Program-made: the position numbers and the translations under genes
In this document: piece by piece, positions 16,441 through 30,902 of the stretch
Layout: each line of letters begins with the position of its first letter
Position numbering within the stretch: position 1 is the stretch's first letter
Notes under the pieces: model-generated
Told to the model about the DNA's origin: nothing
The model's database searches: none
Seen by the model: the letters and a program-made list of their open reading frames with translations, nothing else
Source of the DNA: Rhodanobacter sp. DHG33
Lineage (GTDB): Bacteria > Pseudomonadota > Gammaproteobacteria > Xanthomonadales > Rhodanobacteraceae
Length of the DNA: 64,000 nucleotides
Reading direction: 5' to 3'
NCBI RefSeq assembly: GCF_014843005.1
Contig: NZ_JACYXM010000003.1
Location: forward strand, 248,001 to 312,000

Positions 16441-17346
16441 TCACATCGACGCGATGGCTGCTGCGTGCTGGCGCAGCCAGGGAGTCAGATCGAGCTGCCA
16501 GATGCCGGATTGCCCGGTGAAGTAGACGCTGTGGCCGTCGAGTGCGATGTGGGAGCCCCAGGGGATGTCCTTGTTGACGACCGCGCCCAGGTCGATCGGT
16601 TTGCCCCAGTGGTCGCCTTCGCGGAAGGCGATGCACAGTCGGCCGAGGCCGCCCTTGGTCTTGCCGTAGTCGAACACGATGAAGGATTGGTCGGGCGCCA
16701 CGGCGGGGTCGTGGGTGGAAACATCCGGGTCGCCCAGCCCTGCGCGCACCGGCGTCGAATAGTGGCCGTCACGGTACGCCGCGCGCCAGGTGTGCATCAC
16801 CTTCGCCTGCTTGTCCCAGCGGATGAAGTACAGGCTGCCGTCGGCGGCGATGCTGGCGAAGTCGATGAATACGTCGTTGTTGACGACGGCGCCGAGCCAG
16901 GTCGGCTGGCCCCAGCCGTTGCCCTCGCGATTCACCCGCCAGATGTTGGAGCCCGGTCCGCTGCCACCGACGAAATAGTCCTGCATCAGCGGTTGGCTGT
17001 CCTTTGTCGGCGGACGGTCCGAATCGAACAACAGATAGCTGCCGTCGGGCGCCATCACCGGATCCTGATCGAACGAATGGCCGGAAAAACCCGCCACCTC
17101 GGGCTGCGACCAGCGTCCGTCGATCTTGTGCGACACCATGATGGTCTTTTGCTTGCCCGCGCTGCGGTCGAAGAAGACGGTCTTGCCGTCGGGCGTGAAG
17201 GCCAGCGTGTCGTCGCTGTCGGCATGGAGGATGCCGCCCAGCGTGACAGGCTGCGGTACGGCAGTCGCCGTGGTGGCGGCCTGTACTCCAGCCGCAATCA
17301 GCAGCAGGCCGGAGGCCAGGCAGAAACGGGTCAGGGTGTGCATCAT
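16441..17346 (-). CDS. secreted PD40 beta-propeller protein, paralogue D
   Basis: The product has 301 residues. A signal peptide (ASGLLLIAAGVQA) is followed by about five to six WD40-like PD40 blades of the form AFTPDGKTVFF, MAPDGSYLLFDSDRP, IAADGSLYFI, VAPDQSFIVF and IALDGHSVYF. The interblade word GRWSQPEVAGFSGHSFDQDP closely matches paralogues A-C in this locus. It ends LDLTPWLRQ, matching the tails of A and B. TolB-like propellers bind proteins or ligands in the periplasm; no target is known. SD GGAGG lies 7 bases upstream of the ATGATG start, which overlaps the preceding stop. Confidence 0.85.
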   Translation of the reverse strand: MMHTLTRFCLASGLLLIAAGVQAATTATAVPQPVTLGGILHADSDDTLAFTPDGKTVFFDRSAGKQKTIMVSHKIDGRWSQPEVAGFSGHSFDQDPVMAPDGSYLLFDSDRPPTKDSQPLMQDYFVGGSGPGSNIWRVNREGNGWGQPTWLGAVVNNDVFIDFASIAADGSLYFIRWDKQAKVMHTWRAAYRDGHYSTPVRAGLGDPDVSTHDPAVAPDQSFIVFDYGKTKGGLGRLCIAFREGDHWGKPIDLGAVVNKDIPWGSHIALDGHSVYFTGQSGIWQLDLTPWLRQHAAAIASM

Positions 17347-18125
17347 CGTGCGGCCTCCACCGGCATGGCGTTGAGCAGGATGTATTGGCGTTCGTTGGCC
17401 TCGATGCGGCCGTAGCGGGCGGAGCTCAGCGACATCTGCCGCGTGCTGACCAGCTCGTCGCTGAGCACGATGCCGTCGCGGAAGGTGGTGTAGCCGTGCC
17501 AGTGCGCGTGCCCGGCCTGTCGTGTCATGTCGCAGGGCTTGCCGTCGCGGGTCATCGTGAGCTGCGACTTCTCGCCCAGCCATGCGCCGTCGCCGCTGCC
17601 TTCGCGTTCCAGAGTGACGGTGTGGCTGCCGGTGTCGAGTGCCACCACGGTCACCGTCTGCTTTCCGGCCGGGCCCAGTTCCCACGGCTCGGCGATGTCC
17701 ACGGTCCAGTGCTGGCCCAGCTTGAGCGTGGTCGGCGGCGTTCCCCACAGACGAGGGTTGTAGGCCAGTCCGCTGGCGTCGGTGTTGGGTGTGCACTTGC
17801 CCTCGTAGCAGTTGGTGGCGCCGCCATCGGACAGTTCCACGGCACCGCTGCCAGACGTCCGGCCGTCGTAGCGGTAGTCGATATGCAGGCGTGCCGGCAG
17901 TGCGGCGTCGGTCACGCGGTAGATGGCGGTGCCGCTGATACGGTGCACCGCCTCATCGAAACCGGGCGCCTGGACGGCGACGGTGCGCGAGAACACGTTG
18001 CCGAAGCTCGCGCCGGTGTGGAAAGCGGGAGTCAGTGCGGGTGCCGTGGCGGAAGCCGCGGCGGCGGCCATGCCGGACCACGACAAGCCGGCCAGCAGGA
18101 GCGGGCACAGGTAGATGCGGATCAT
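17343..18125 (-). CDS. secreted protein of unknown function in the PD40/LytTR locus
   Basis: The 260-residue protein has an N-terminal signal peptide (CPLLLAGLSWSGMAAAA). It is not a propeller: no PDG blade motifs are seen. The mature part looks beta-rich, with a Cys pair in NCYEGKCTPN (likely disulfide) and a third Cys in GKPCDMTRQ. No family is recognised. It lies between two propeller genes, 12 bases after C and overlapping D by four bases, so it is almost certainly co-expressed with them and exported to the same compartment. Confidence 0.8.
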   Translation of the reverse strand: MIRIYLCPLLLAGLSWSGMAAAAASATAPALTPAFHTGASFGNVFSRTVAVQAPGFDEAVHRISGTAIYRVTDAALPARLHIDYRYDGRTSGSGAVELSDGGATNCYEGKCTPNTDASGLAYNPRLWGTPPTTLKLGQHWTVDIAEPWELGPAGKQTVTVVALDTGSHTVTLEREGSGDGAWLGEKSQLTMTRDGKPCDMTRQAGHAHWHGYTTFRDGIVLSDELVSTRQMSLSSARYGRIEANERQYILLNAMPVEAAR

Positions 18126-18137
18126 GCGGCCTCCGGG

Positions 18138-19127
18138 TCAGGGCGTGATGCCGTGTGCGCGCAGCACGTCGGAAATGTCGAAGCGCCACAGGTTGCGCGA
18201 GCCGTTCAAGGGTTGCTCGAGGCGCTGCTGCAGCGTGGTCGCGTTGTCTCGCGGCTTGGGAAAGGTCATCTCGTCGCGGCGGCTGCTGGAGACGAACAGC
18301 TCGCCGAAGCGCGGCCCCAGCGAAGGCGCGTTCTCCAGCGCCGTGCTGTTGACGTCGCCCGGCAGATGCAGCGGTTTGCTCCAGTGGCCGTCCGGCTGGC
18401 GGAACGCGATGTAGAGATCGGCGCTGCCCAGCGAATCGCCCTCGTCGCTGGCATAGATCAGAAAGCGCTGCTGCGGGTCGATGGCAGGGTCCATGCGGTT
18501 GTGTGCCAAGTCGCCCAGGTCCACGCGCTGCGGCACCGCGTAGCCCTGCGCGGTGCGGCGCGCCACGTAGATCTGGTAGGCGGCGCCGGAATCCGGCCGG
18601 TGCGCGGAGAAGTAGATGTCGCCGTTCGCCGCCACCGAGGGGTTGTAGATCATCGCGCCGTCGTTGAGCGCGCCGTCCACGTGCACGGGTTCGCTCCAGC
18701 GGCCGTCGGCCTGGCGTTGCACGAACCAGAGATTGGTGCCCGCGAAATGATGGCCGCCCATTTCCGTCGTCAGCGATGCACCGCCGGGCTGAAGGGGGCG
18801 ATTGGAGACGTAGTACAGCCGCTGGCCATCCGGCGACAGCGTGGGCTCGGAGTCGTGCCATTGCCCCGAGAACGAGGCCACCTGCGGCATGCCCCAGTGT
18901 CCGTCCGCCCGGTGCGAGACGAGGATGGTGTCGTCCCGTTCGGCGAAGTCGGAGCGCATGAAGTACAGCGTGTTGCCGTCCGGCGTCAGCGCGGCCGAGG
19001 TTTCCTGCAGCCCGGTGGAGATCACGCCGGGGCCGACCAGCTCGCCGTGAGCCTGCGCCCGCGCGGTGAGTGGTGCGGCCAGCGCGGCCGCGAGACAGGC
19101 GGCCAGGACGAAATGACGTGGGGACAT
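18138..19127 (-). CDS. secreted PD40 beta-propeller protein, paralogue C
   Basis: The product has 329 residues with a signal peptide (ACLAAALAAPLTARAQA) and PD40 blades ALTPDGNTLYFMR, LSPDGQRLYYVSNRP, VAANGDIYFSAHRP, IDPQQRFLIYASDEG and LGPRFGELFVSSSRR. The interblade phrase SHRADGHWGMPQVASFSGQW matches paralogues A and D. Unlike A, B and D its tail reads FDISDVLRAHG, not LxPWL. The start at 19127 follows AGGAGC. It begins the second transcription unit of the locus, with a LytTR-type repeat about 110 bases upstream. Confidence 0.85.
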   Translation of the reverse strand: MSPRHFVLAACLAAALAAPLTARAQAHGELVGPGVISTGLQETSAALTPDGNTLYFMRSDFAERDDTILVSHRADGHWGMPQVASFSGQWHDSEPTLSPDGQRLYYVSNRPLQPGGASLTTEMGGHHFAGTNLWFVQRQADGRWSEPVHVDGALNDGAMIYNPSVAANGDIYFSAHRPDSGAAYQIYVARRTAQGYAVPQRVDLGDLAHNRMDPAIDPQQRFLIYASDEGDSLGSADLYIAFRQPDGHWSKPLHLPGDVNSTALENAPSLGPRFGELFVSSSRRDEMTFPKPRDNATTLQQRLEQPLNGSRNLWRFDISDVLRAHGITP

Positions 19128-19236
19128 GTCTGCTCCTGATGGGCCGCGGACCGTCGCGGCGGGATCGCATGCCGTGGAGTCTCGTGGTGCCCGTGCCACG
19201 TCGCCGCTATCTAGTGACGAGCGGAAAGGGCCCGTG

Positions 19237-19266
19237 ATCAGCGGTCGCTGCTGCGTGGCGAACGGT
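19237..19266 (-). promoter_or_regulatory. putative LytTR response-regulator binding site upstream of paralogue C
   Basis: The minus strand shows ACCGTTCGC (19266-19258), a 12-base spacer, then ACCGCTGAT (19245-19237). Each half fits the LytTR half-site pattern [TA][AC][CA]GTTN[AG][TG] in 8 of 9 positions, and the two starts are 21 bases apart, two helical turns. A LytTR regulator is encoded immediately upstream. A related single word, TCCGCTCGTC, lies at 19225-19216. Binding is inferred. Confidence 0.6.
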
Positions 19267-20006
19267 CAGGGCAGGCCGAGCACCGCGCGCGCACCGGCCC
19301 GGAAGCGCCGGCTGAGATCCAGCCGGGTGCCATCGCGCAGCACGATCTCGGCATTGCCGTTGAACAGCGGATGCACTTCGCGGATGCGTTCCACGTTGAC
19401 GATCACGCCGCGATGGATGCGTAGGAAACGCGCCGGGTCGAGCACATCGAGCAGGTGGCTCAGCGCCTCGCGGTGCAGGTAGCGGGTGCCGTCGGCATGG
19501 ATCTGCACGTAGTTGCCGTCAGCGCGGATCCAGTCGATGGCATCCACCGCGATCACCCGGATGTGCTCGCCCACGCGCACGCTGATGCGCTGCAGGTGAC
19601 CTACGGACGCCGGATTCGCCACGGGCGCCTGCAAGCCGTGCCAGTGCCGGCGCATGCGATCCATGGCCTGGTCGAAGCGCGCCTGGTCGATCGGCTTCAG
19701 CACATAGTCCAGCGCGCCGGCGTCGAACGCGCGCAGTGCGTGCTGGCCGTAGGCGGTGGTGAACACCACCATCGGCAACGCCTGCGGCCGCAGCTGGTGC
19801 AGCAGCTTGAAACCGTCCATGCCGGGCATGCGGATATCGAGGAAGAGCAGGTCCGGTGCGAGCGCCTTGACTGCCTGCAGCGCCTCGACGGCATTGCCGC
19901 ACTCGCCGACGATCGCCACGTCGGCATGCGCGGCGAGTGCCTGGCGCAGCGCGAGGCGCGCCAGCACCTCGTCGTCGACCAGCAGTGCACGGATCGCGGC
20001 ACTCAT
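19266..20006 (-). CDS. LytTR family response regulator
   Basis: The 246-residue protein has a receiver domain (residues about 5-120) with acidic pair Asp11-Asp12, phosphoacceptor Asp57 in LFLDIRMPG and Lys104 in YVLKP. A LytTR DNA-binding domain follows (about residues 140-240), with RISVRVGEHIRVIAV, DGNYVQIHADG and RFLRIHRGVIVN. It is the AlgR/LytR type, binding direct repeats. Its start overlaps the histidine kinase stop by four bases. Likely targets are the propeller genes of the same locus, where matching repeats occur. Confidence 0.93.
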   Translation of the reverse strand: MSAAIRALLVDDEVLARLALRQALAAHADVAIVGECGNAVEALQAVKALAPDLLFLDIRMPGMDGFKLLHQLRPQALPMVVFTTAYGQHALRAFDAGALDYVLKPIDQARFDQAMDRMRRHWHGLQAPVANPASVGHLQRISVRVGEHIRVIAVDAIDWIRADGNYVQIHADGTRYLHREALSHLLDVLDPARFLRIHRGVIVNVERIREVHPLFNGNAEIVLRDGTRLDLSRRFRAGARAVLGLP

Positions 20007-21172
20007 GCGGCGTGCTCGCGGAACGGCAGGCGCAGCTCCACCCGCGTACCGCCGCCATCGCGGCGCTGCAGTTCCAGCCGCGCGTCGCTACCGAACAGCA
20101 TCGCCAGCCGGGCGCGGGTGTTGGTGAGGCCGATGCCCTCGTTTGCGCCGTCCGGCGGCAGGCCCAGGCCGTCGTCGTCCACGCGCAGGTAAAGCTCGTC
20201 GCCCTCGCGGTGGCCGGTCACCTGCAGACTGCCCGGTTCGGCCTTAGCCAGCAGGCCGTGGCGCAGCGCGTTTTCCACCAGCGGCTGCAGGATCAGATTC
20301 GGCACGGCGGCGCGCAGCGCGTCGTCGGCCACGTCCAGCCGCGTGCTGAGCCGGTCCTGGAAGCGCACCTGCTGGATGTCGAGGTAGCAGCGCAGGAACT
20401 CCAGCTCGCGTGCCAGCGGCACCTGCGGCGCGTGGCGCTCCTCCAGCGTGAGGCGAAGGAAGTCGCTGAGCCGCGCGATCATCAGTCGCGCCTGCAGCGG
20501 GTCGGCCAGCGCCAGCGCGGAGATCGCGTTGAGCGTGTTGAACAGGAAATGCGGCTGCAGCTGCATGCGCAGCGCCTGCAATTGCGCCTGCGCCAGCTGC
20601 GATTCCAGCAGGGCGCTGCGCAGCCGTTCGTCGCGCAGCCGGCGGCGCGACTCCATGCCGCGCAGCACTACCAGCACGATCCAGTAGGTGAGTACGGCCA
20701 GGTGGTAGCTGTAGGCGAACTCCATGCGCACGTACTGGCTCAGCGTGTGCACTCCGGGCATGCGTCCGGGGCCGCACAGGTACCAGAACACCACCAGGTG
20801 CACCATCATCTGCGCCAGCGCCACCGCCAGCGAAGCCGGCACGTGCATGGCGAAGAAGCGCCGCCAGCCATGCCCCGCGCTTCGCTGTCCCAGCCAGCCC
20901 ACCAGCGGCATCAGCGCCATCCAAACCCAGAAGTTGCCGAGGTTCCAGGCCAGGTTGCGCAGCCAGTCCGGCGGATAGCCCTCGCTGATCGAAGCGAGTC
21001 CGCCGCTGAGTGCGTAGGACAACGCCAGCAGCGTCCAGAAGCCGAAGATCAGCCCCCAGGTCTTCAGTCGCTGCGTTGCGCTGCGGTCGAGCACGGGATC
21101 CTCGCTGGCGTACCACCCGATGGCGGGCCAGTGTGCGCGGCTGCGGCCGTCCGCGACAGTGCCTGAAGGCAT
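20003..21172 (-). CDS. LytS/YehU-type sensor histidine kinase
   Basis: This 389-residue membrane kinase has four hydrophobic segments (about residues 41-60, 80-97, 113-131, 155-170), a short coiled linker and a His_kinase domain. The phosphoacceptor is His208 in LQPHFLFNTLNAISAL. The ATPase part has PLVENALRHG and DDDGLGLPP with GIGLTNTRARL. There is no large periplasmic sensor, so it may sense through its membrane part or through a partner protein. An alternative start at 21220 would overlap the upstream gene; 21172 was preferred to avoid this, with no decisive ribosome site. Confidence 0.88.
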   Translation of the reverse strand: MPSGTVADGRSRAHWPAIGWYASEDPVLDRSATQRLKTWGLIFGFWTLLALSYALSGGLASISEGYPPDWLRNLAWNLGNFWVWMALMPLVGWLGQRSAGHGWRRFFAMHVPASLAVALAQMMVHLVVFWYLCGPGRMPGVHTLSQYVRMEFAYSYHLAVLTYWIVLVVLRGMESRRRLRDERLRSALLESQLAQAQLQALRMQLQPHFLFNTLNAISALALADPLQARLMIARLSDFLRLTLEERHAPQVPLARELEFLRCYLDIQQVRFQDRLSTRLDVADDALRAAVPNLILQPLVENALRHGLLAKAEPGSLQVTGHREGDELYLRVDDDGLGLPPDGANEGIGLTNTRARLAMLFGSDARLELQRRDGGGTRVELRLPFREHAA

Positions 21173-21186
21173 TGCCGACGTCGGGC

Positions 21187-21732
21187 CTAGGATTGCGGCA
21201 TCGACGCGTCGCGTGTGCATGACTGCTCGTCGCCCAGCTTCCACGCACCGCTGCCGTTCCGATAGGTGTAGGTCACGCGGTAGGCGTCGTCGTCGAGGCG
21301 CTGGAATGCGAAGCGATCGAGGTAACCGCTCGTCGCAACGTTCTCCAGCGTCAGCGTGCCGTCCACCCATCCGGGCGAGGTGTAGCGCCTGTCGCCGCCG
21401 AAGTTGTCGAACACCGTCGCGGTGAAATGCTTTGCGACCTTGTCATAGCCCCACCACGCATCCGCGAGGTAGCGATTCGGTGGATCGTCCGCATGCCGCA
21501 TGTGCAGCCATTGACCGCCGAGCTCGACGGTGAAGGTCTCGCTTGAGCGGACCGGCTTGCCGTTCGCGAACTGACCCTTGCAGTGCCAGTGCCCGGCGAA
21601 CCAGGTCAGCGACGTCAGTGCCGGCGTCATTTCGGCATGCGCCGGTGCGGTAATGGCGAACAGGCCCGCGGCACCTGCCAGCACGGCGAAGGCGATGGAT
21701 GCTGCGTGCTGCGTGCGGGGTGATGGACTCAT
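21187..21732 (-). CDS. secreted protein, DUF1579-like
   Basis: The product has 181 residues with a signal peptide (AFAVLAGAAGLFAITAPAHA). The mature part begins LTSLTWFAGHWHCKG and contains a GGQWLHMRH stretch, DAWWGYD and YTYRNGSGAWKLG. This resembles the DUF1579 / lipocalin-like group that starts with an L-x-G-x-W strand and is expected to bind a small ligand. The assignment is tentative. The start follows AGGAGC at a normal distance. It lies between propeller B and the kinase in one run of minus-strand genes. Confidence 0.75.
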   Translation of the reverse strand: MSPSPRTQHAASIAFAVLAGAAGLFAITAPAHAEMTPALTSLTWFAGHWHCKGQFANGKPVRSSETFTVELGGQWLHMRHADDPPNRYLADAWWGYDKVAKHFTATVFDNFGGDRRYTSPGWVDGTLTLENVATSGYLDRFAFQRLDDDAYRVTYTYRNGSGAWKLGDEQSCTRDASMPQS

Positions 21733-21775
21733 CGATGTGCTCCTGAGGCAGGTGTTGCGGAATGGTCGCGGCGGG

Positions 21776-22672
21776 TCATGGCTTTGCCGTCGCGCGCTGA
21801 GCCAGCCAAGGGGCGAGCATGAGACGATGGATGCGATGGTCGGCGGCGCTGAAATAAAGCGTGGTGTGATCCGGACCCAGGCGCGCCTCGTCGCCGACGA
21901 CGCCGAGGTCGGTCGGTGTGTTCCAACCGTTATGCGTCGCAAAGGCAATGAACAGGTCGCCACCGTTGGACGGCGCCGGCGGGCGGTCAGAGCTGAAGAC
22001 GAGGAAAGACCCGTCCGCCGCCACTGTGGGGTCGTAATCGGAGTTCGCGTCACCACCGCCTAGTGCCAGAGCTTGCGCCGCCTGATAGCGGCCATGGATC
22101 TGGCGACTGCGGTAAAGCCGGAACGTGCCGTTGGCCGGATCGACACGCACGAAGGTGAGGCTGCCATCCGCCGCCACCGTCGGCGAAAAGATCGACGTGC
22201 CGGCATTCACGACCTCGGACAGGCGCTGCGGCGTACCCCAGCCGTCGCCGGCACGATCCACCCGCCACAGGTTGCCGCCGCGGGCGGGATACGCCTTGCC
22301 GCCCCAGTTGCCGTCCAGCGCTTTGCCGGTGCCGTTCGCCGGCCGATTGGAGACGAAAACCAGGTAGGAGCCGTCCGGCGCCATCGTCGGTTCGAAGTCC
22401 ATCCACTGGTTCGAGAACGGCGCTCGCACCGGCGCCGACCACGCGCCGTCATGGCGTTGGGCGATGTAGAGGCGGCGCGCCGTGCCGCTGCCACGGGTGA
22501 ACACCACCGTGTCGCCGTCCGGTGCGAAGGCGGGCGAGGCGTCGTGGGCCGCCATCCACGGTCCTTCGGCCGGGGGCGTCGCAGTGTCGTTCGCTGCCGC
22601 TCGCGCCGGCGGTGCGCAGACGACTACACCTAAAGCCAGGGCGACGATTACAACCAGGTGTCGGCAAAGCAT
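21776..22672 (-). CDS. secreted PD40 beta-propeller protein, paralogue B
   Basis: The 298-residue product has a signal peptide (IVALALGVVVCAPPARA) and blades AFAPDGDTVVFTRG, MAPDGSYLVFVSNRP, VAADGSLTFVR, VAADGSFLVFSSDRP and LGPDHTTLYFSA. The segment GGKAYPARGGNLWRVDRAGDGW aligns with the same place in A. The tail LMLAPWLAQ matches A and D. The start at 22672 is supported by GAGGAG upstream; a longer frame exists but lacks the signal peptide at its start. It is 38 bases downstream of A. Confidence 0.85.
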   Translation of the reverse strand: MLCRHLVVIVALALGVVVCAPPARAAANDTATPPAEGPWMAAHDASPAFAPDGDTVVFTRGSGTARRLYIAQRHDGAWSAPVRAPFSNQWMDFEPTMAPDGSYLVFVSNRPANGTGKALDGNWGGKAYPARGGNLWRVDRAGDGWGTPQRLSEVVNAGTSIFSPTVAADGSLTFVRVDPANGTFRLYRSRQIHGRYQAAQALALGGGDANSDYDPTVAADGSFLVFSSDRPPAPSNGGDLFIAFATHNGWNTPTDLGVVGDEARLGPDHTTLYFSAADHRIHRLMLAPWLAQRATAKP

Positions 22673-22710
22673 GAATGGCTCCTCATGGGGATGGAACGAT
22701 CGCCAGGACA

Positions 22711-23658
22711 TCAACGTCCGCTTCCGGCGCGCGCATCCAGCCACGGCGCCAGCGACACCTGCCAGATATGGTCGTGGCCGTTGCTCCACGCTGTACCCGC
22801 TTGCGTGCCGGTGGCGCTGCGGTCGCTGTAGAAGTACAGCGTGCGGCGATCCGGGCCGAGCTGGGCGCCCATGCTTTCCTTGCCGCCGTTGACCGCATCG
22901 CCGAGGTCTTGCGGCGCGCTCCAGCCGTCTGGTGTGCGGAACGCTATGGCGAGGCGGTACGGTTGCTGCGCGCTGTGCTTGATGCTGACCACGATGAAGG
23001 AGCCGTCGGGTGCGATGGCGGGATCGCGGATGGTGGCGTTTGCATCGCCCAGCGGCACCACGCGGGGCGTCGCGTAATGGCCATCGCGATAGGAGGAGTA
23101 CAGCAGTGCGAAGTCGCCGTGCGGGCCCGCGCAGCCGATGAAGTAGAGACTGCCGTCGGCGGCGATGCTCGGGGAGGCGATCAGCGAACAGCGGTTGACG
23201 ACGTCGGGCAGGCGCACCGGTGCGCTCCAGTGGTCGCCCCGCCAGTCCACCCGCCACAGGTTCATGCCTTGCCCGACATGGCGCTTGCCACCATGGACCG
23301 CGTCGAGTGGCGGATCGCCCGGCGTGGCCGGGCGGTTGGACGCGAACAAGAGGAAAGAACCGTCCGGAGCCATTGCCGGGTCGAGGTCGTGCCAGTGGCC
23401 TGAGAATGGCGCCACCGTCGGCGACGACCAGCGTCCGTCGCGACGATGCGATTCCATCAGCGTCGAGCCGTCACCGGTGCCGCGCATGAAATAGACGGTG
23501 GCACCGTCCGGCGTAAACGCGGCTGCGCCATCGTCGGCGTCAGCGGGAACGGTATCCGGTGCAAAGACCGCTGGCACGACTGGCGCCGGCACGTGACTGG
23601 TCATGGCCGCGACCGGCGCAAAACTCATCCATGCCGCGAACGCTGTCGACAGGCGCAT
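22711..23658 (-). CDS. secreted PD40 beta-propeller protein, paralogue A
   Basis: The 315-residue product is the first gene of the locus. After a short signal-like N-terminus (STAFAAWMSFAPVAAM) it has blades AFTPDGATVYFMRG, MAPDGSFLLFASNRP, IAADGSLYFIG, IAPDGSFIVVS and LGPDRRTLYFYSD, and the tail SLAPWLDA. The phrase DGRWSSPTVAPFSGHWHDLD matches C and D. Two ATGs lie close together (23664 and 23658); the second has AGGAGG at ideal 7-base spacing and was chosen. Function is unknown; propellers of this kind usually mediate binding. Confidence 0.85.
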   Translation of the reverse strand: MRLSTAFAAWMSFAPVAAMTSHVPAPVVPAVFAPDTVPADADDGAAAFTPDGATVYFMRGTGDGSTLMESHRRDGRWSSPTVAPFSGHWHDLDPAMAPDGSFLLFASNRPATPGDPPLDAVHGGKRHVGQGMNLWRVDWRGDHWSAPVRLPDVVNRCSLIASPSIAADGSLYFIGCAGPHGDFALLYSSYRDGHYATPRVVPLGDANATIRDPAIAPDGSFIVVSIKHSAQQPYRLAIAFRTPDGWSAPQDLGDAVNGGKESMGAQLGPDRRTLYFYSDRSATGTQAGTAWSNGHDHIWQVSLAPWLDARAGSGR

Positions 23659-23830
23659 CGCCATCCCTCCTCATCGGTGGTGTGCCCGTGCGTGGACACA
23701 TCCATCGATGCAGGCTGGCGCAGGCATCCGTGGCCGTCGTGCAGGATGTGATGGCCGGGGCGTTCGACGTGACCAGCGGCATGCGCAGCCGGACGGGAGG
23801 TGCCCGCTCGCCGCCGACACACTCATGGCG

Positions 23831-23860
23831 ACCGTTCGTCACCGCGATGACATCGCTCGC
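23831..23860 (+). promoter_or_regulatory. putative LytTR binding site at the head of the PD40 locus
   Basis: ACCGTTCGT (23831-23839) is followed by a 12-base spacer and ATCGCTCGC (23852-23860). The first half is a perfect LytTR half-site, and with the next base it equals the AlgR decamer ACCGTTCGTC known from Pseudomonas. The 9-12-9 layout is the same as the site at 19237-19266. It lies in the 280-base divergent region between paralogue A and the NTF2-like gene, oriented toward the latter, and could serve either. Confidence 0.6.
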
Positions 23861-23938
23861 CCCGCAACCGAAGCGCGCACCGCATGCACCGCGCAGGCTG
23901 CTCCTGCGGCACTGTCGCCGCGCCAACGGGACGACAAC

Positions 23939-24451
23939 ATGCCTTACCGCACTTATTACCCCCTCCGTACCAGCCTTGCGTGCGCCGGTTTGTTGCTAGC
24001 CGTCGGCGTGGTTGGTACGCAGGCCATCGCGGCACCGCAGGGCGGCACTTCCGCCACGGACGAAACCGCGCGCACCGCCGCCGCCGTGATAGCGGTGGAC
24101 CAGCACTGGCTGGAAGCCGAGGAGAGCGGCGATACCGCCTGGCTCGACGGCATGCTGCTGCCGGACTACCGGTCGGTGGGCGTGACCGGCACCTTCGCCA
24201 CGAAGGCCGCCATCATGGCCCATGCCGCGAAGAACCACGGCTCGCCGGCGATGAAACAGCAGGTGACAGCGTGGCAGCAGGCGCATCCGGTGGACCAGCA
24301 GGTGACGCTGCAGGGCGATACCGCGATCCTCAGCTTCGTCAGCAACGCGCCCGCGACCAAGGGCAAGCTGTATTCCTCGGACGTGTTCACCTACGTCGAC
24401 GGCCACTGGCACGCGTTGTATTCGGCGCACACGGAACTCGGCAAGAGCTGA
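23939..24451 (+). CDS. secreted SnoaL/DUF4440-like (NTF2 fold) protein
   Basis: The 170-residue protein has a signal peptide (LACAGLLLAVGVVGTQAIAA) and an NTF2-like domain. It contains AVIAVDQHWLEAEESGDTAWLDGMLLPDYRSVG, the typical opening helix-strand, and ends VFTYVDGHWHALYSAHTEL. DUF4440 members bind small molecules or act in unknown periplasmic roles; no catalytic residues can be assigned. It is divergent from the propeller locus across a LytTR-type site and may be part of the same regulon. It ends 12 bases before the convergent oxidoreductase gene. Confidence 0.82.
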   Translation: MPYRTYYPLRTSLACAGLLLAVGVVGTQAIAAPQGGTSATDETARTAAAVIAVDQHWLEAEESGDTAWLDGMLLPDYRSVGVTGTFATKAAIMAHAAKNHGSPAMKQQVTAWQQAHPVDQQVTLQGDTAILSFVSNAPATKGKLYSSDVFTYVDGHWHALYSAHTELGKS

Positions 24452-25529: not shown

Positions 25530-26270
25530 TTACCACGCGATGCGCTGGCCGTCGCGCAGCAGCGCGCCGTTGATGCCGGGTTCGGGCTGGCAGGCAGCGG
25601 CGACCACGCTGGCGGCGCCGCGTTCCACCGGTCCGCCGCCGGGGCCACCGAGGCCGGTGGCTAGCCAGCCGGGACAGACCGCGTTGACCAGGATGCCACT
25701 GCCGGCGAGTTCGGCGGCGAGCGCGCGGGTATAGGCGTTGAGCGCAGCCTTGGAGACGCGGTAGGCGGGATAGCCGATGGCGTCGGGTGCGGTGACGCCG
25801 GCGCAGCCGCTGGTGACATTGACGATGCGACCGTAGCGGTGCCGGCGCATCAGCGGCAGCACCGCGCTGCTGAGCTGCCATGCGCCGAGCAGGTTGGTTT
25901 CCAGCGCGGCGCGAACGTCGGTGGCCCCGGCGCTCTCGGCACGTGCGGTGCTGTCGGCGTAGCCGCCGGCGTTGTTCACCAGCACATCGAGGCGGCCGTG
26001 TTCGCGTTCTATCCAGGCGGCGAGTTCGGCGATCTGCGTTGCATCGGTGATGTCCAGCGGCACGGCCGTGACGTCACCGGCGATCTGCTTCGCGGCGTGC
26101 CGACCCTTGGCGAGATCGCGCGCCCCCAGCAGCACGCTGTAGCCGCGCGCAGCGAGCTGGCGCGCCACTTCGAAACCCAGCCCGCGGTTCGCACCGCTGA
26201 CCAGGGCCACGCGATGTACACCGGAGATGGGCGGCGCGTCCTGCGCCGCGGGCTGGCGCGTCCTGCTCAT
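25530..26270 (-). CDS. SDR family NAD(P)-dependent oxidoreductase
   Basis: This 246-residue classical short-chain dehydrogenase resembles carbonyl reductases. SGANRGLGFEVAR is the cofactor motif, NNAGG the structural motif, and the catalytic set is Ser in NVTSGCAG with YRVSK (Tyr and Lys). Substrate is unknown. The start at 26270 overlaps the outer-membrane factor stop by four bases (ATGA), so it belongs to the efflux operon. A slightly longer start at 26306 would intrude further into that gene. Confidence 0.9.
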   Translation of the reverse strand: MSRTRQPAAQDAPPISGVHRVALVSGANRGLGFEVARQLAARGYSVLLGARDLAKGRHAAKQIAGDVTAVPLDITDATQIAELAAWIEREHGRLDVLVNNAGGYADSTARAESAGATDVRAALETNLLGAWQLSSAVLPLMRRHRYGRIVNVTSGCAGVTAPDAIGYPAYRVSKAALNAYTRALAAELAGSGILVNAVCPGWLATGLGGPGGGPVERGAASVVAAACQPEPGINGALLRDGQRIAW

Positions 26271-27715
26271 GGCACGGCGGCCACCGGAGTGGCGACCGGC
26301 GCGCAATGCGCGTCGTCACCGCAGGCCTGCCAGCCACCGCCCAGCGCCTTGTAGAGCGCCACAGCACGCGTGTCGATGGCAGCTTGTGCCTGTGCCAGCG
26401 CGTCATCCGCGGCGAGCTGCACGCGCTGGGCGTCGAGCAGTTCGAGGTAGCCGGTGGCGCCCTGTTCGTAACGCACCTTGGCCAGCTCGGCAGCGCGCTG
26501 GCTCTGCTGTGCCTGCGCGAGCAGCTTCTCGACGCGATCATGCTGCAGGTTGTAGCCCACCACGGCGTTGTCCACGTCTTCGACGGCTTCCAGCACGGTG
26601 CGCTGGTAGTTGGCCTGCGCGGCATCGGTGCGCGCTTCGGCGGCATGCAGTTCGCTGCGTACCCGCTGCACGTTGAGGCCGTTCCAGGTGATGCTGGGCG
26701 CGATCGACCAGGCACGCGAAGACGGGCCGCCGAAATCGTTGCTGCGCCCGGCGAGGAAACCGAGGAAGCCGCCCAGCGAGACATGCGGGAAGAAATCCGC
26801 CTTGGCCACGCCGATGCGCGCGTTGGCGGCGGCGTATTCGCGTTCGGCGATGCGCACGTCGGGCCGCCGCGCCAGCACGTCGCCCGCGGCGCCGATGGGC
26901 AGCACGGCATCGATGGGCTTGAACGTCTGCGGCGAGACGTCGACGTCCAGCGCGCCGGGCTGTTCGCCCAGGAGCACGGCGAGTCGGTACTCGTCGGCAT
27001 GCGCCTGCATGTCGAGCAGGGGCAGTTGCGCCTGTGCCGCGCTGAGCTGCGCCTCGGCGCTGGCCACGTCCTGGTCGGAGGCCGTGCCCACTTCGGCGCG
27101 GGCGCGGATCAGCTTCAGCGTGTCCTGCTGGTTGGCGATGTCGCGGTTGGCGATCGCCTGCCGCTGCTGCGTGCCGCGCAGGTCGAAGTAGTTGCGCGCC
27201 ACTTCGGCGAACAGGCTCACCTGCGCATCCTGCAGTCCCGCTTCGCTGGCGCCGAGGTCGGCGTGCGCGGCTTCCACCGAGCGGCGCACGCCGCCGAACA
27301 CGTCGATTTCCCAGCTGGCGTCGAAGCCGGCCTGGTAGGCGGTGACCGTGCTGCGCTGGGTATCGAAGCCCGGCGTCTGCTCACGGCTGCGGCTGTACGA
27401 AACACCGGCCTGCACGTCGGGCAGGTACTGGGATTTCGCACCGCCGAGGAGGGCGCGCGATTCGGCCAGCCGCGCTTGCGCGATGCGCAGATCGAGGTTG
27501 CCGGCGGCGGCGCGCTGGATCAGCGCGTCGAGCATCGGGTCACCGAACTGCTTCCACCATTGGGCCTGGAACTGCGTGGCGCTTTCGCGCGCCGCGTCGA
27601 TGCCCTGCAGTTGTGGCGCGGGCGTGGTCGGCGCCTTGTAGTCGGGGCCGATGCTGGCGCAACCGGCCAGCACCAGGGCGGCGAACAACGCGGTATTGCG
27701 AAGCAAGCTTTTCAT
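26267..27715 (-). CDS. efflux outer-membrane factor (NodT/OprM family lipoprotein)
   Basis: The product has 482 residues. The lipobox LVLAGC places the lipidated Cys at residue 19, followed by IGPDYKAP, the canonical start of NodT-family factors. Two repeated outer-membrane efflux protein domains follow; each has a long helical pair (for example DLRIAQARLAESRALL and AELAKVRYEQGATGYLELLDA). It forms the trimeric outer-membrane tunnel of the RND pump encoded just upstream (1-base gap). Confidence 0.94.
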   Translation of the reverse strand: MKSLLRNTALFAALVLAGCASIGPDYKAPTTPAPQLQGIDAARESATQFQAQWWKQFGDPMLDALIQRAAAGNLDLRIAQARLAESRALLGGAKSQYLPDVQAGVSYSRSREQTPGFDTQRSTVTAYQAGFDASWEIDVFGGVRRSVEAAHADLGASEAGLQDAQVSLFAEVARNYFDLRGTQQRQAIANRDIANQQDTLKLIRARAEVGTASDQDVASAEAQLSAAQAQLPLLDMQAHADEYRLAVLLGEQPGALDVDVSPQTFKPIDAVLPIGAAGDVLARRPDVRIAEREYAAANARIGVAKADFFPHVSLGGFLGFLAGRSNDFGGPSSRAWSIAPSITWNGLNVQRVRSELHAAEARTDAAQANYQRTVLEAVEDVDNAVVGYNLQHDRVEKLLAQAQQSQRAAELAKVRYEQGATGYLELLDAQRVQLAADDALAQAQAAIDTRAVALYKALGGGWQACGDDAHCAPVATPVAAVP

Positions 27716-27716
27716 C

Positions 27717-30700
27717 TCAATGTCCCTCCAGCGCCGGCAAGCCGTTCGCCTGCGCGTGCTTGCGCGCTTCGCGGCGTTCCACCAGCGCGCGAATCACGAC
27801 GTAGAACAACGGGGTGTAAATCAGCCCGAACAGGGTGACGCCGAGCATGCCGGAGAACACCGCCACGCCCATCGCGTGGCGCATTTCCGCGCCGGCGCCG
27901 TGCGAAGTCACCAGCGGCACCACGCCCATGATGAAGGCGATCGACGTCATCAGGATCGGGCGCAGTCGCAGGCGGGCGGCTTCCAGCACCGCCTCGTGGC
28001 GGCTCATGCCTTCGTGCTGGCGTTCGCGGGCGAACTCCACAATCAGGATCGCGTTCTTGCAGGCCAGGCCCACCAGCACGATCAGGCCGATCTGGGTGAA
28101 GATGTTGTTGTCGCCGCCCGACAGCCACACGCCGGCGATCGCGGAGAGCAGCACCATCGGCACGATCAAGATCACCGCCAGCGGCAGCGACCAGCTCTCG
28201 TACAGCGAGGACAGCACCAGAAACACCAGCAGCACGCACAACGGAAACACCAGCACCGCGGTGTTGCCGGCGAGGATCTGCTGGTAGGTGAGGTCGGTCC
28301 ACTCGAAGCTCATGCCGTTCGGCAGGATCTGCTGCGCCAGCTTCTCGATGGCCGCCTGCGCCTGCCCCGAGCTGTAGCCCGGCGCCGGGCCGCCGTTGAT
28401 CTCGGCGGTGGGGTAGCCGTTGTAGTGCTGCACGCGATCGGGACCCGCGCCGTGCGCCACGGTGACGAAGGAGCCCAGCGGCACCATCTCGCCGCGCGCG
28501 TTGCGCGTCTTCAGCTGGTTGATGTCTTCGAGATCGTGGCGGAACGAGGGCTCGGCGGACAGGTTCACCTGGTAGGTGCGGCCGAAGCGGTTGAAGTCGT
28601 TGACGTAGAGCGAGCCGAGGTAGGCCTGCATGGTCTCGTACACGTCGCCCAGGTTCACGCCTTCGGCCTTGGCCTTCTCGCGGTCCACGTCCACGTCCAC
28701 CTGCGGCACGTTGACCTGGAAGCTGGAGAACAGCCCAGCCAGCGCGGGGTCCTTGCGGCTCGCCGCGATCAGGTTCTGCGTCTGCTTGTACAGCTCGTCG
28801 AAGCCGAGCTGGCCGCGGTCTTCCACCTGCATGCGGAAACCACCGATCGTGCCCAGGCCCATCACCGGCGGCGGCGGGAAGATCGCGATGTAGGCGTCCT
28901 GGATGGAGGCGAACTTCGCATTCAACGCGCCCGCGATGGCGCCGGCGGAAAGGTCCGCGCTGCGCCGTTCCTCGAACGGTTTCAGCGTCACGAACACGAT
29001 GCCGGCGTTGCTGCTGTTGGTGAAGCCGTTCACCGACAGGCCGGGGAAGGCCACCGCGCTCTGCACGCCGGGCTGCTTCAGCGCGATTGCGCTCATGCGC
29101 TTGATCACGTCTTCGGTGCGGTCCAGCGAAGCGGCGTCAGGCAGCTGCGCGAACGACACGAGGTATTGCTTGTCCTGCGTCGGCACGAAGCCGGTGGGTA
29201 CGTGCCAGAAGCCGAACGCGGTGAGCGCGATCAGCGCTGCATACACCACCAGCGCGGCCCCGCCCTTGCCCTGCAGCTTGCGCGTGCCTTCCACGTAGCG
29301 CTCCGCGCCACGATGGAACAGGCGGTTGAACGGACGGAACAGCCAACCGAACAGGCGGTCGATGGCGCGGGTGAGGCGGTCCTTTGGCGCACCGTGCGGC
29401 AGCAGCAGGATGGCTGCCATCGCCGGGCTCAAGGTCAGCGAGTTGAACGCCGAGATCACCGTGGAGATCGCGATGGTCAGCGCGAACTGGCGGTAGAACT
29501 CGCCGGTTAGGCCGCTGATGAAAGCGGTAGGGATGAACACCGCGCACAGCACCAGCGCCGTTGCCACGATCGGTCCGGTGACCTCGCGCATTGCCTTGCG
29601 CGTGGCTTCCTTCGGCGTCTGGCCGAGCTCGATGTGGCGCTCCACGTTTTCCACCACCACGATGGCGTCGTCCACCACGATGCCGATCGCCAGCACCATG
29701 CCGAACAGCGACAGCGCGTTGAGCGAGAAGCCCACCACGTACATCACCGCGAAGGTGCCGATCAGCGACACCGGCACCGCGATCAGCGGAATGACCGAGG
29801 CGCGCCAAGTCTGCAGGAACAAGATCACCACCAGCACCACCAGCAGGATCGCCTCCAGCAGGGTGTGCGCCACCGCCTCGATGGAGCCGCGAACGAACAC
29901 CGTGGGGTCGTACACGATGTGGTACTCGATGCCCTGCGGGAACTCCTTCTTCAACTGCGCCATGGTGGCGCGCACCTCGTCGGAGATCTGGATGGCGTTG
30001 GAGCCGGGCCGCGCGAAGATCGGAATGGCCACTGCGGGCTGGTTGTCCAGCAGGCTGCGCAGCGCGTACTGGTCGGAACCCAGCTCCACCCGCGCCACGT
30101 CGCCCAGGTGCACCACGGCGCCGTCGGCGTCGGTGCGCAGCACGATGTTGCGGAAATCGTCCACCGTGCTCAGGCGGCCCTGCGTGTTGATGTTGAGCTG
30201 GAAGTCGGCGTTGCTGCGCACCGGCGGTGCGTTCAGCGCGCCGGCGGCCACCTGTACGTTCTGCTCGCGGATCGCGTTCGCCACGTCGCCGGTGGTGAGG
30301 CCGCGCTGGGCCAGCCGGTCCGGGTTGAGCCACACGCGCATGGAGTATTCGCCGGCGCCGAAGATCTGCACGTCGCCGACACCGTTCAACCGGCTCAGCA
30401 CGTCCTTCACGTGCAGCCGTGCGTAGTTCGACAGGTACAGCATGTCGTAGCGCTGATCGGGCGAGGTGAGGTGCACCACCATGGTGAGGTCGGGCGAACT
30501 CTTCTGCGTGGTCACGCCGAGGCGCTGCACTTCCTCGGGCAGGCGCGGCAGCGCCTGCGACACGCGGTTCTGCACTTCCACCTGGGCGTCGTTGAGATTG
30601 GTGCCCAGCGCGAAAGTCACGGTGAGCGTCATCACGCCGTCGCTGGTGGCTTGCGAGGAGGTGTAGAGCATGCCTTCCACGCCGTTGATCTGGGTTTCCA

Positions 30701-30902
30701 GCGGCGTGGCGACGGTCTCGGCGATCACCTTGGGGTTGGCGCCGGGATAGTTGGCGCGCACCACCACGGTGGGCGGCACCACTTCGGGATATTCGCTGAT
30801 CGGCAACTGGAAGACCGCGATGCTGCCGGTGATGACGAACAGCAGCGAAAGCACCGCGGCCATGATGGGCCGGTCGACGAAAAACTGGGCGATGTTTTTC
30901 AT
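27717..30902 (-). CDS. RND multidrug efflux permease (HAE1 family, MexF-like)
   Basis: This 1061-residue inner-membrane proton-driven pump begins FFVDRPIMAAVLSLLFVITG. It has the usual 12 membrane segments and two large periplasmic loops. The proton relay Asp pair is visible in AIGIVVDDAIVVVENVERH. The pairing with a LysR regulator and oxidoreductases resembles MexF, BpeF and OqxB. Typical substrates are phenicols, quinolones and trimethoprim, but specificity is not readable. The permease follows the adaptor gene after an inverted REP pair. Confidence 0.95.
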   Translation of the reverse strand: MKNIAQFFVDRPIMAAVLSLLFVITGSIAVFQLPISEYPEVVPPTVVVRANYPGANPKVIAETVATPLETQINGVEGMLYTSSQATSDGVMTLTVTFALGTNLNDAQVEVQNRVSQALPRLPEEVQRLGVTTQKSSPDLTMVVHLTSPDQRYDMLYLSNYARLHVKDVLSRLNGVGDVQIFGAGEYSMRVWLNPDRLAQRGLTTGDVANAIREQNVQVAAGALNAPPVRSNADFQLNINTQGRLSTVDDFRNIVLRTDADGAVVHLGDVARVELGSDQYALRSLLDNQPAVAIPIFARPGSNAIQISDEVRATMAQLKKEFPQGIEYHIVYDPTVFVRGSIEAVAHTLLEAILLVVLVVILFLQTWRASVIPLIAVPVSLIGTFAVMYVVGFSLNALSLFGMVLAIGIVVDDAIVVVENVERHIELGQTPKEATRKAMREVTGPIVATALVLCAVFIPTAFISGLTGEFYRQFALTIAISTVISAFNSLTLSPAMAAILLLPHGAPKDRLTRAIDRLFGWLFRPFNRLFHRGAERYVEGTRKLQGKGGAALVVYAALIALTAFGFWHVPTGFVPTQDKQYLVSFAQLPDAASLDRTEDVIKRMSAIALKQPGVQSAVAFPGLSVNGFTNSSNAGIVFVTLKPFEERRSADLSAGAIAGALNAKFASIQDAYIAIFPPPPVMGLGTIGGFRMQVEDRGQLGFDELYKQTQNLIAASRKDPALAGLFSSFQVNVPQVDVDVDREKAKAEGVNLGDVYETMQAYLGSLYVNDFNRFGRTYQVNLSAEPSFRHDLEDINQLKTRNARGEMVPLGSFVTVAHGAGPDRVQHYNGYPTAEINGGPAPGYSSGQAQAAIEKLAQQILPNGMSFEWTDLTYQQILAGNTAVLVFPLCVLLVFLVLSSLYESWSLPLAVILIVPMVLLSAIAGVWLSGGDNNIFTQIGLIVLVGLACKNAILIVEFARERQHEGMSRHEAVLEAARLRLRPILMTSIAFIMGVVPLVTSHGAGAEMRHAMGVAVFSGMLGVTLFGLIYTPLFYVVIRALVERREARKHAQANGLPALEGH

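Follow-up and report, generated by a model that had tools for sequence, protein, structure and literature searches.

A LytS/LytTR two-component locus of Rhodanobacter sp. DHG33 with a predicted local regulon of exported PD40 propellers

Described relatives and the composition of the locus

The closest described counterparts of the system studied here are BtsS/BtsR and YpdA/YpdB of Escherichia coli and AlgZ/AlgR of Pseudomonas. In the excerpts of the literature used here, LytTR operators consist of two repeats of 9-11 nucleotides (nt) with 11-13 nt between them, YpdB having a tandem-repeat operator (PMC4847170); BtsS/BtsR and YpdA/YpdB have one target gene each in E. coli, and BtsS carries a GAF domain (PMC5552118); and the AlgR core site is CCGTTCGTC, not necessarily arranged in regular repeats (PMC4064291). 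Here we describe a locus in a 64,000-nt stretch of Rhodanobacter sp. DHG33 (contig NZ_JACYXM010000003.1, positions 248,001 to 312,000), referred to below as the window. Eight minus-strand genes spanning positions 16441-23658 follow one another in the order A-B-X-K-R-C-S-D, where A to D are propellers, X and S are other exported proteins, K is a histidine kinase and R is a response regulator. Comparative sequence analysis indicates that the locus very probably holds a dedicated two-component system of the LytS/LytTR type, whose regulon is small and local and includes the propellers, to whose promoters R is predicted to bind. The kind of system is known, its output is unusual, and the regulon is widespread in the family.

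The genes of the locus, in window coordinates, are:
22711-23658, minus strand: propeller A, 315 residues, PD40, secreted; first gene of the operon, with its own clade in the propeller tree
21776-22672, minus strand: propeller B, 298 residues; alignment, Pfam, tree
21187-21732, minus strand: X, 181 residues, secreted DUF1579-like protein
20003-21220, minus strand: K, 405 residues, LytS-type histidine kinase with PF06580 and HATPase_c, no recognised sensor domain
19266-20006, minus strand: R, 246 residues, response regulator with a LytTR DNA-binding domain
18138-19127, minus strand: propeller C, 329 residues; alignment, Pfam, tree, structural model
17343-18125, minus strand: S, 260 residues, secreted protein without a known family
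16441-17343, minus strand: propeller D, 300 residues; alignment, tree
23939-24451, plus strand: DUF4440 gene, 170 residues, secreted, divergent from the operon; probable further member of the regulon

Export is putative throughout, as the signals were assigned by eye only from a hydrophobic N-terminus and an AxA-like site. The initial annotation had placed four secreted propellers of 298-329 residues at 22711, 21776, 18138 and 16441, on one strand with a LytS-type kinase, a LytTR regulator, a DUF1579-like protein and an unrecognised secreted protein. Places, strand and alignments of the propellers were confirmed, as were the other four genes by position and by Pfam and NCBIfam; its eight genes are right, while the operators, the divergent DUF4440 gene and a fifth propeller in the same genome had been missed. 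Spacing is 38 bases between A and B, 43 between B and X and 12 between C and S, while S and D share 1 base. With K read from its longer start (an alternative, shorter start at 21172 is possible), X and K have 34 bases in common; K overlaps R by 4. The sole long gap in the series is that of 138 bases between R and C.

K lies over the Pfam cut-offs for PF06580 (93.7 bits) and HATPase_c (43.5 bits), and the adjoining gene for R encodes a receiver (86.2 bits) and a LytTR domain (77.8 bits). Three hydrophobic segments above threshold (residues 57-75, 131-149 and 168-186), and a fourth recognised by eye near 90-108, lie in K, with the kinase part following. The Pfam scan recognised no sensor domain in K. 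To our knowledge, the signal of LytS-type kinases without a recognised sensor domain is seldom known.

As far as the excerpts describe them, BtsS/BtsR and YpdA/YpdB resemble this locus in combining a LytS-type kinase with a LytTR regulator, in the tandem-repeat operator (YpdB) and in having few targets. Their targets are transporters, whereas the output here is an exported propeller family; BtsS has a GAF domain, whereas the Pfam scan of K gave none at E <= 1; and R scores 194.3 bits, below the BtsR equivalog cut-off of 246. The 9-bp core of the operator is nearly the same as that of AlgR, whose sites, in the excerpt, are not necessarily regular repeats, whereas those of the window are tandem with a 21-bp period. 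Among propellers, TolB is the best fold match of C (Foldseek E value 9e-11), but A to D reach 15.2-33.7 bits against a TolB equivalog cut-off of 343. TolB has an N-terminal domain, for which there is no room in proteins of 298-329 residues, and, unlike TolB, the propellers here are several paralogues beside a two-component system. The closest NCBIfam profiles are those of the PD40 proteins PorE and CHU_0125, which A to D match at 39-78 bits against cut-offs of 600 and 620; unlike those proteins, A to D showed no OmpA-like domain in the Pfam scan. Membership in the TolB, PorE/CHU_0125 and BtsR families is ruled out by these scores. Among the matches listed from the open-licence literature, no title or abstract concerned a LytTR system with PD40 propellers; one paper, on alpha/beta hydrolases, contains the terms LytTR and PD40 once each (PMC11878206).

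The operator and its association with the kinase and regulator

A 12-mer, ACCGCTCGTCAC, repeated in tandem with a 21-bp period, was noticed when the regions from R to the next gene in related genomes were read side by side, and a weight matrix was built from these regions. With its 9-bp core and its period, the operator of the window follows the repeat rule for LytTR operators. Three operators were found, and no other at the scan threshold in the 64-kb window:
19214-19266, minus strand: operator 2, in the R-C gap; half-sites ACCGTTCGCCAC, ACCGCTGATCAC and TCCGCTCGTCAC, 21 and 20 bp apart
23748-23780, minus strand: operator 1, upstream of A; GCCGCTGGTCAC and CCCGGCCATCAC, 21 bp apart, the second weak
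23831-23863, plus strand: operator 3, facing the DUF4440 gene; ACCGTTCGTCAC and ATCGCTCGCCCC, 21 bp apart, the second weak

The repeats are numerous and regularly spaced. In 38 regions after R, 85 sites were found, against 10.3 in shuffled sequences, and 35 of the 50 steps between neighbouring sites are exactly 21 bp. Within the first 420 bases, 34 regions have at least two sites, one has a single site and three have none; in these three (L081, L086 and L092) other DNA follows R, and a pair precedes the displaced propellers in each. When any spacing from 13 to 40 bp was allowed, 76 of 99 pairs were 21 bp apart and 12 were 20 bp apart. In 33 regions, a median of 70 bases (range 40-290) separates the end of the last site from the matched start of the following gene. 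Over 81 loci (1.17 Mb), 100 pairs of at least 20 bits were found, against 1, 0 and 1 in three triplet shuffles. A search allowing at most one mismatch gave the R-C site as the sole match in the window's own genome, and 29 matches in 147 genomes against 6 for a reversed control pattern; by coordinates, 24 of the 29 lie at these loci and five outside.

The 147 genomes were drawn from the family. An orthologous kinase (E <= 1e-60) is present in 50 of them, in 13 of 26 genera, and a propeller (E <= 1e-15) in at least 69. The initial annotation had proposed looking for the same gene set in related genomes, and such sets were found: with loci fetched for part of the propeller matches and judged by eye, kinase and propellers share one locus in 38 of the 50 kinase genomes and not in the other 12, and 11 of the 13 kinase genera include a genome with linked propellers.

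An operator pair lies beside these genes at 47 of the 50 kinase loci. Before C-type propeller blocks it is found in 46 of 49 cases in kinase genomes and in none of the six, out of 55 loci, whose genomes yielded no orthologous kinase (Fisher P = 2.9e-6, kinship of the genomes being ignored). Among named genomes outside the training set, every C block has the operator in the 11 with the kinase and none has it in the four without. The six kinase-less loci are from Rudaea, Frateuria flava, a Dyella, two Luteimonas and a Pseudoxanthomonas, and because they span these genera the difference has probably arisen on several occasions. The operator remains at the propellers where these are separated from R by other DNA (L081, L086, L092, L137, L145 and L154), and it can persist there when propeller and kinase are unlinked (L061, L123 and L160). 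The survey excluded propeller pieces shorter than 600 bases, a locus on a short contig of a metagenome-assembled genome (L162) and 26 of 42 named loci, since the contigs of the latter match genomes already fetched.

The same repeats occur at other promoters. Upstream of the first gene of the operon, 72 sites were found against 14.8 in shuffled sequences. A DUF4440 homologue is present at 26 of the 50 kinase loci, and at 20 of these the operator, reversed, faces it.

Because the operator marks the propeller promoters and tracks the kinase, we consider the propellers most likely to be a direct regulatory output of K and R. The initial annotation had named regulated output as one of two possible roles, and the LytTR-type 21-bp direct repeats at the propeller promoters strongly support it. 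As judged from the protein families, K, a membrane protein, would sense a signal and phosphorylate R, which would then bind the direct repeats at three promoters located by comparative sequence, those of A-B-X-K-R, of C-S-D and of the divergent DUF4440 gene. As output, the system would produce a set of exported proteins, namely X, S, the DUF4440 protein and four TolB-like propellers that diverged long ago.

It could be argued that the repeats belong to another LytTR regulator, for example an AlgR orthologue, and that the neighbourhood of K and R is incidental. The core differs very little from the AlgR consensus, and the genome of the window encodes seven LytTR domains. However, the operator is absent from every kinase-less C locus, and two of the kinase-less genomes that were scanned (G060 and G032) keep 4 and 8 LytTR domains, counted as domains of any kind, yet have no operator before C; this favours R over any LytTR protein, and we regard control by another regulator as very unlikely.

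Several observations count against control of the propellers by R. Operators 1 and 3 of the window each have a weak second half-site, and 6 of the 26 DUF4440 genes at kinase loci have no facing operator. No pair of 18 bits lies beside the genes at the kinase loci L096, L112 and L115. C-type blocks without a pair occur in three kinase genomes (L096, L098 and L122); L096 retains one strong half-site and L098 a pair below threshold, and in the genomes of L098 and L122 the kinase belongs to clades without propellers. With up to three mismatches, the own genome gives 11 matches against 9 for a control, three of them at this locus and the other eight in loci overlain by long frames. Solo propellers of other clades mostly lack the operator, so that control by R does not extend to the propeller family as a whole; the operator as a feature of every propeller is ruled out. 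Finally, the weight-matrix counts are partly circular, since the matrix was trained on the regions from R to the next gene. Evidence that depends less on training comes from the promoters of the operon and of the DUF4440 genes, from the loci without propellers and from the named genomes.

If the predicted regulon is correct, the exported propellers become part of a testable regulon of few targets, with three promoters and an operator of 33 bp, and an apparent output of few exported proteins would offer a clean reporter in a search for the signal.

Loci without propellers and the role of the propellers

In a kinase tree of 53 rows, 11 of the 12 loci without an adjoining propeller are grouped in one clade of 8 and another of 3. 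The tree includes four distant kinases (L071, L121 and the first copies of L087 and L102), and lacks that of L081, which is cut by the end of the locus. The twelfth kinase, from a genome of the window's own genus (G069), is nested among linked kinases; the frames of X, K and R are open there, and the genome has no propeller at E <= 1e-15 among the matches listed.

Other genes take the place beside the operator at these loci. Six of the 12 (L105-L110), all of one genus, have a MacB-like permease after R; the protein of L105, to which the Pfam scan was applied, matches MacB_PCD and FtsX, and the others are related to it. An operator-like pair lies just after R in five of the six, with none at threshold in L106. 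At 8 of the 12 loci a DUF4440 gene lies upstream of K (of X in G069) with the operator facing it; L107 has the gene and no pair at threshold, L112 and L114 have it after R, the pair being weak in the former and strong in the latter, and L115 has no DUF4440 gene. Because loci without propellers retain the operator before other genes, we propose that the regulator keeps its operator while its output changes, which would make these loci a good natural experiment.

These loci also bear on whether the propellers take part in sensing. They might be periplasmic co-sensors that bind a ligand and contact the short outer loops of K, in which case their induction would form a feedback loop. The lack of a recognised sensor domain in K, the sharing of a locus by propellers and kinase in most kinase genomes, and, in L071, a propeller immediately preceded by a distant LytS/LytTR pair (174 and 161 bits) are consistent with such a role. 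However, 12 of the 50 kinase genomes have no propeller beside K and R, and the whole G069 genome yielded none at E <= 1e-15 while its X, K and R are open; the other 11 propeller-less kinases belong to diverged clades and may therefore sense otherwise. On balance, we consider a co-sensor role unlikely. An obligate sensing role is disfavoured because K and R persist in those 12 genomes without adjoining propellers, and we have downgraded it. Thus, the other role named in the initial annotation, that of propellers reporting to the kinase, is disfavoured as an obligate one; 6 of the 55 C loci, moreover, are in genomes that yielded no such kinase.

A broader and equally doubtful proposal is that one LytS/LytTR chassis with its own operator has had its output modules swapped, with the propellers acting back as a multi-ligand sensor array in which A and B are paired. 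The modules would be propeller sets (11 of 13 genera), a MacB-like permease after R (6 genomes) and a DUF4440 gene after R (2 genomes). A and B may form a working pair, because in several relatives their counterparts are fused into one polypeptide: they form a single reading frame in seven fetched loci (L045, L046, L090, L099, L118, L119 and L120, a stop shortening the second propeller in L099) and in two named genomes (L145 and L154).

At L071:5503-8488, L121:5357-9541 and L087:2346-4138, a distant LytS/LytTR pair (98-174 bits) lies beside or near propellers, in L071 in the same K-R-propeller order as in the window.

The propeller family and the remaining exported proteins

Propellers A to D share about 35-45% pairwise identity, with E values of 6e-37 to 1e-65, far beyond chance. 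The initial annotation had assigned all four to PD40, which stands for A, B and C, above the Pfam cut-off; D is a weak match (15.8 bits against 20.9) and, by alignment, a clear homologue of the other three. In a tree of 106 propellers, from which pieces below 700 bases or 100 bits were excluded, the C clade comprises 34 rows with a support of 100/100: 26 are the first propeller after R, four the second, and four stand at loci without K and R. Clades of 17, 13 and 9 rows contain A, B and D and consist mostly of genes at the same position. Since the clades are separate and match gene position, the paralogues appear to be old and largely position-keeping. Recent tandem duplication is ruled out by these separate old clades, although the bootstrap is not fully settled. 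It had been asked at the outset whether homologues usually occur alone and scattered. This is not so for the C clade and partly so for the wider family, in which 29 of the 106 propellers stand at fetched loci without K and R (four in the C clade, one in the D clade), a count that is not a rate because the loci for fetching were hand-chosen.

C is 62-92% identical to 26 homologues, and W90, H91, D92, H149, H176, R211, D213, E276 and R311 are among its many invariant residues over the 27 sequences. Named relatives with a C-type propeller belong to Rhodanobacter, Dyella, Frateuria, Luteibacter, Fulvimonas and Rudaea and, at lower identity, to Luteimonas and Pseudoxanthomonas. In a class-wide sample of 369 genomes, which among the rows listed holds one other genome of the family and three of the order, a C match at E <= 1e-35 was found in the window's own genome alone. 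The structural model of C has a mean predicted local distance difference test (pLDDT) score of 80.5, and its top Foldseek matches in the PDB are TolB structures, the first being a TolB/Pal complex with a template modelling (TM) score of 0.46; TM scores by query are 0.45-0.48 for the best TolB matches.

Sialidases, a GH43 enzyme and other propellers are also among the Foldseek matches of C, and the propellers may possibly be enzymes, or carriers of metals or glycans, in nutrient scavenging induced by the two-component system. The many invariant residues of C fit such a function. A precedent would be AztD, which is itself a beta-propeller. In the excerpt of its description, AztD is a periplasmic or surface zinc-binding protein (PMC6689063). 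However, the genes that carry an operator in the window include neither a transporter nor a catabolic gene, the fold by itself is compatible with many functions, and the C profile has no match among solved structures by sequence at E <= 1e-4. Scavenging therefore seems to us doubtful, although less so than a sensing role. The function that we consider most likely for the propellers, tentatively, is that of envelope binding proteins, each of which may have a different ligand or partner.

Several other propellers were observed. A fifth, strongly diverged one is encoded in the window's own genome (L084:7777-8748, contig C41) between genes of 1020 and 428 residues, and the scan found no operator at it. 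Apparent remnants of further propellers are a 109-bit fragment before C (L086:7999-8361) and a short propeller-like frame, seen by eye, in the R-C gap of L085. In L070 and L058, solo propellers from a different clade have two genes of 474-547 residues nearby, one of which resembles, by eye, a beta-lactamase-family hydrolase.

Among the other exported proteins, X scores 22-23 bits against DUF1579, for which the Pfam cut-off is 25.2, and seven of the nine members of its alignment, the X of the window included, match DUF1579 at E <= 0.01. The divergent gene lies over the DUF4440 cut-off (41.1 against 25.2 bits). S could be assigned neither to an NCBIfam family nor, credibly, to a Pfam family (best Pfam E value 0.029, below the cut-off), and the 11 sequences of its alignment gave no Pfam match at E <= 0.01. 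The model of S is good (pLDDT 86.2) and almost all-beta, with weak PDB matches only: the best E value, 4e-4, goes with a TM score of 0.17, and further matches are half-barrel lipid-transfer proteins (0.40-0.48), LolA3 (0.25) and a DUF1329 protein (0.16). Judged from this model, S has no convincing solved relative.

Next to the cluster, at 26267-30902 of the window on the minus strand, lies an RND efflux operon, recognised by eye from a 482-residue outer-membrane factor and a 1061-residue pump. The scan of the 64-kb window found no operator pair before it. Genes of similar size adjoin the cluster in several relatives.

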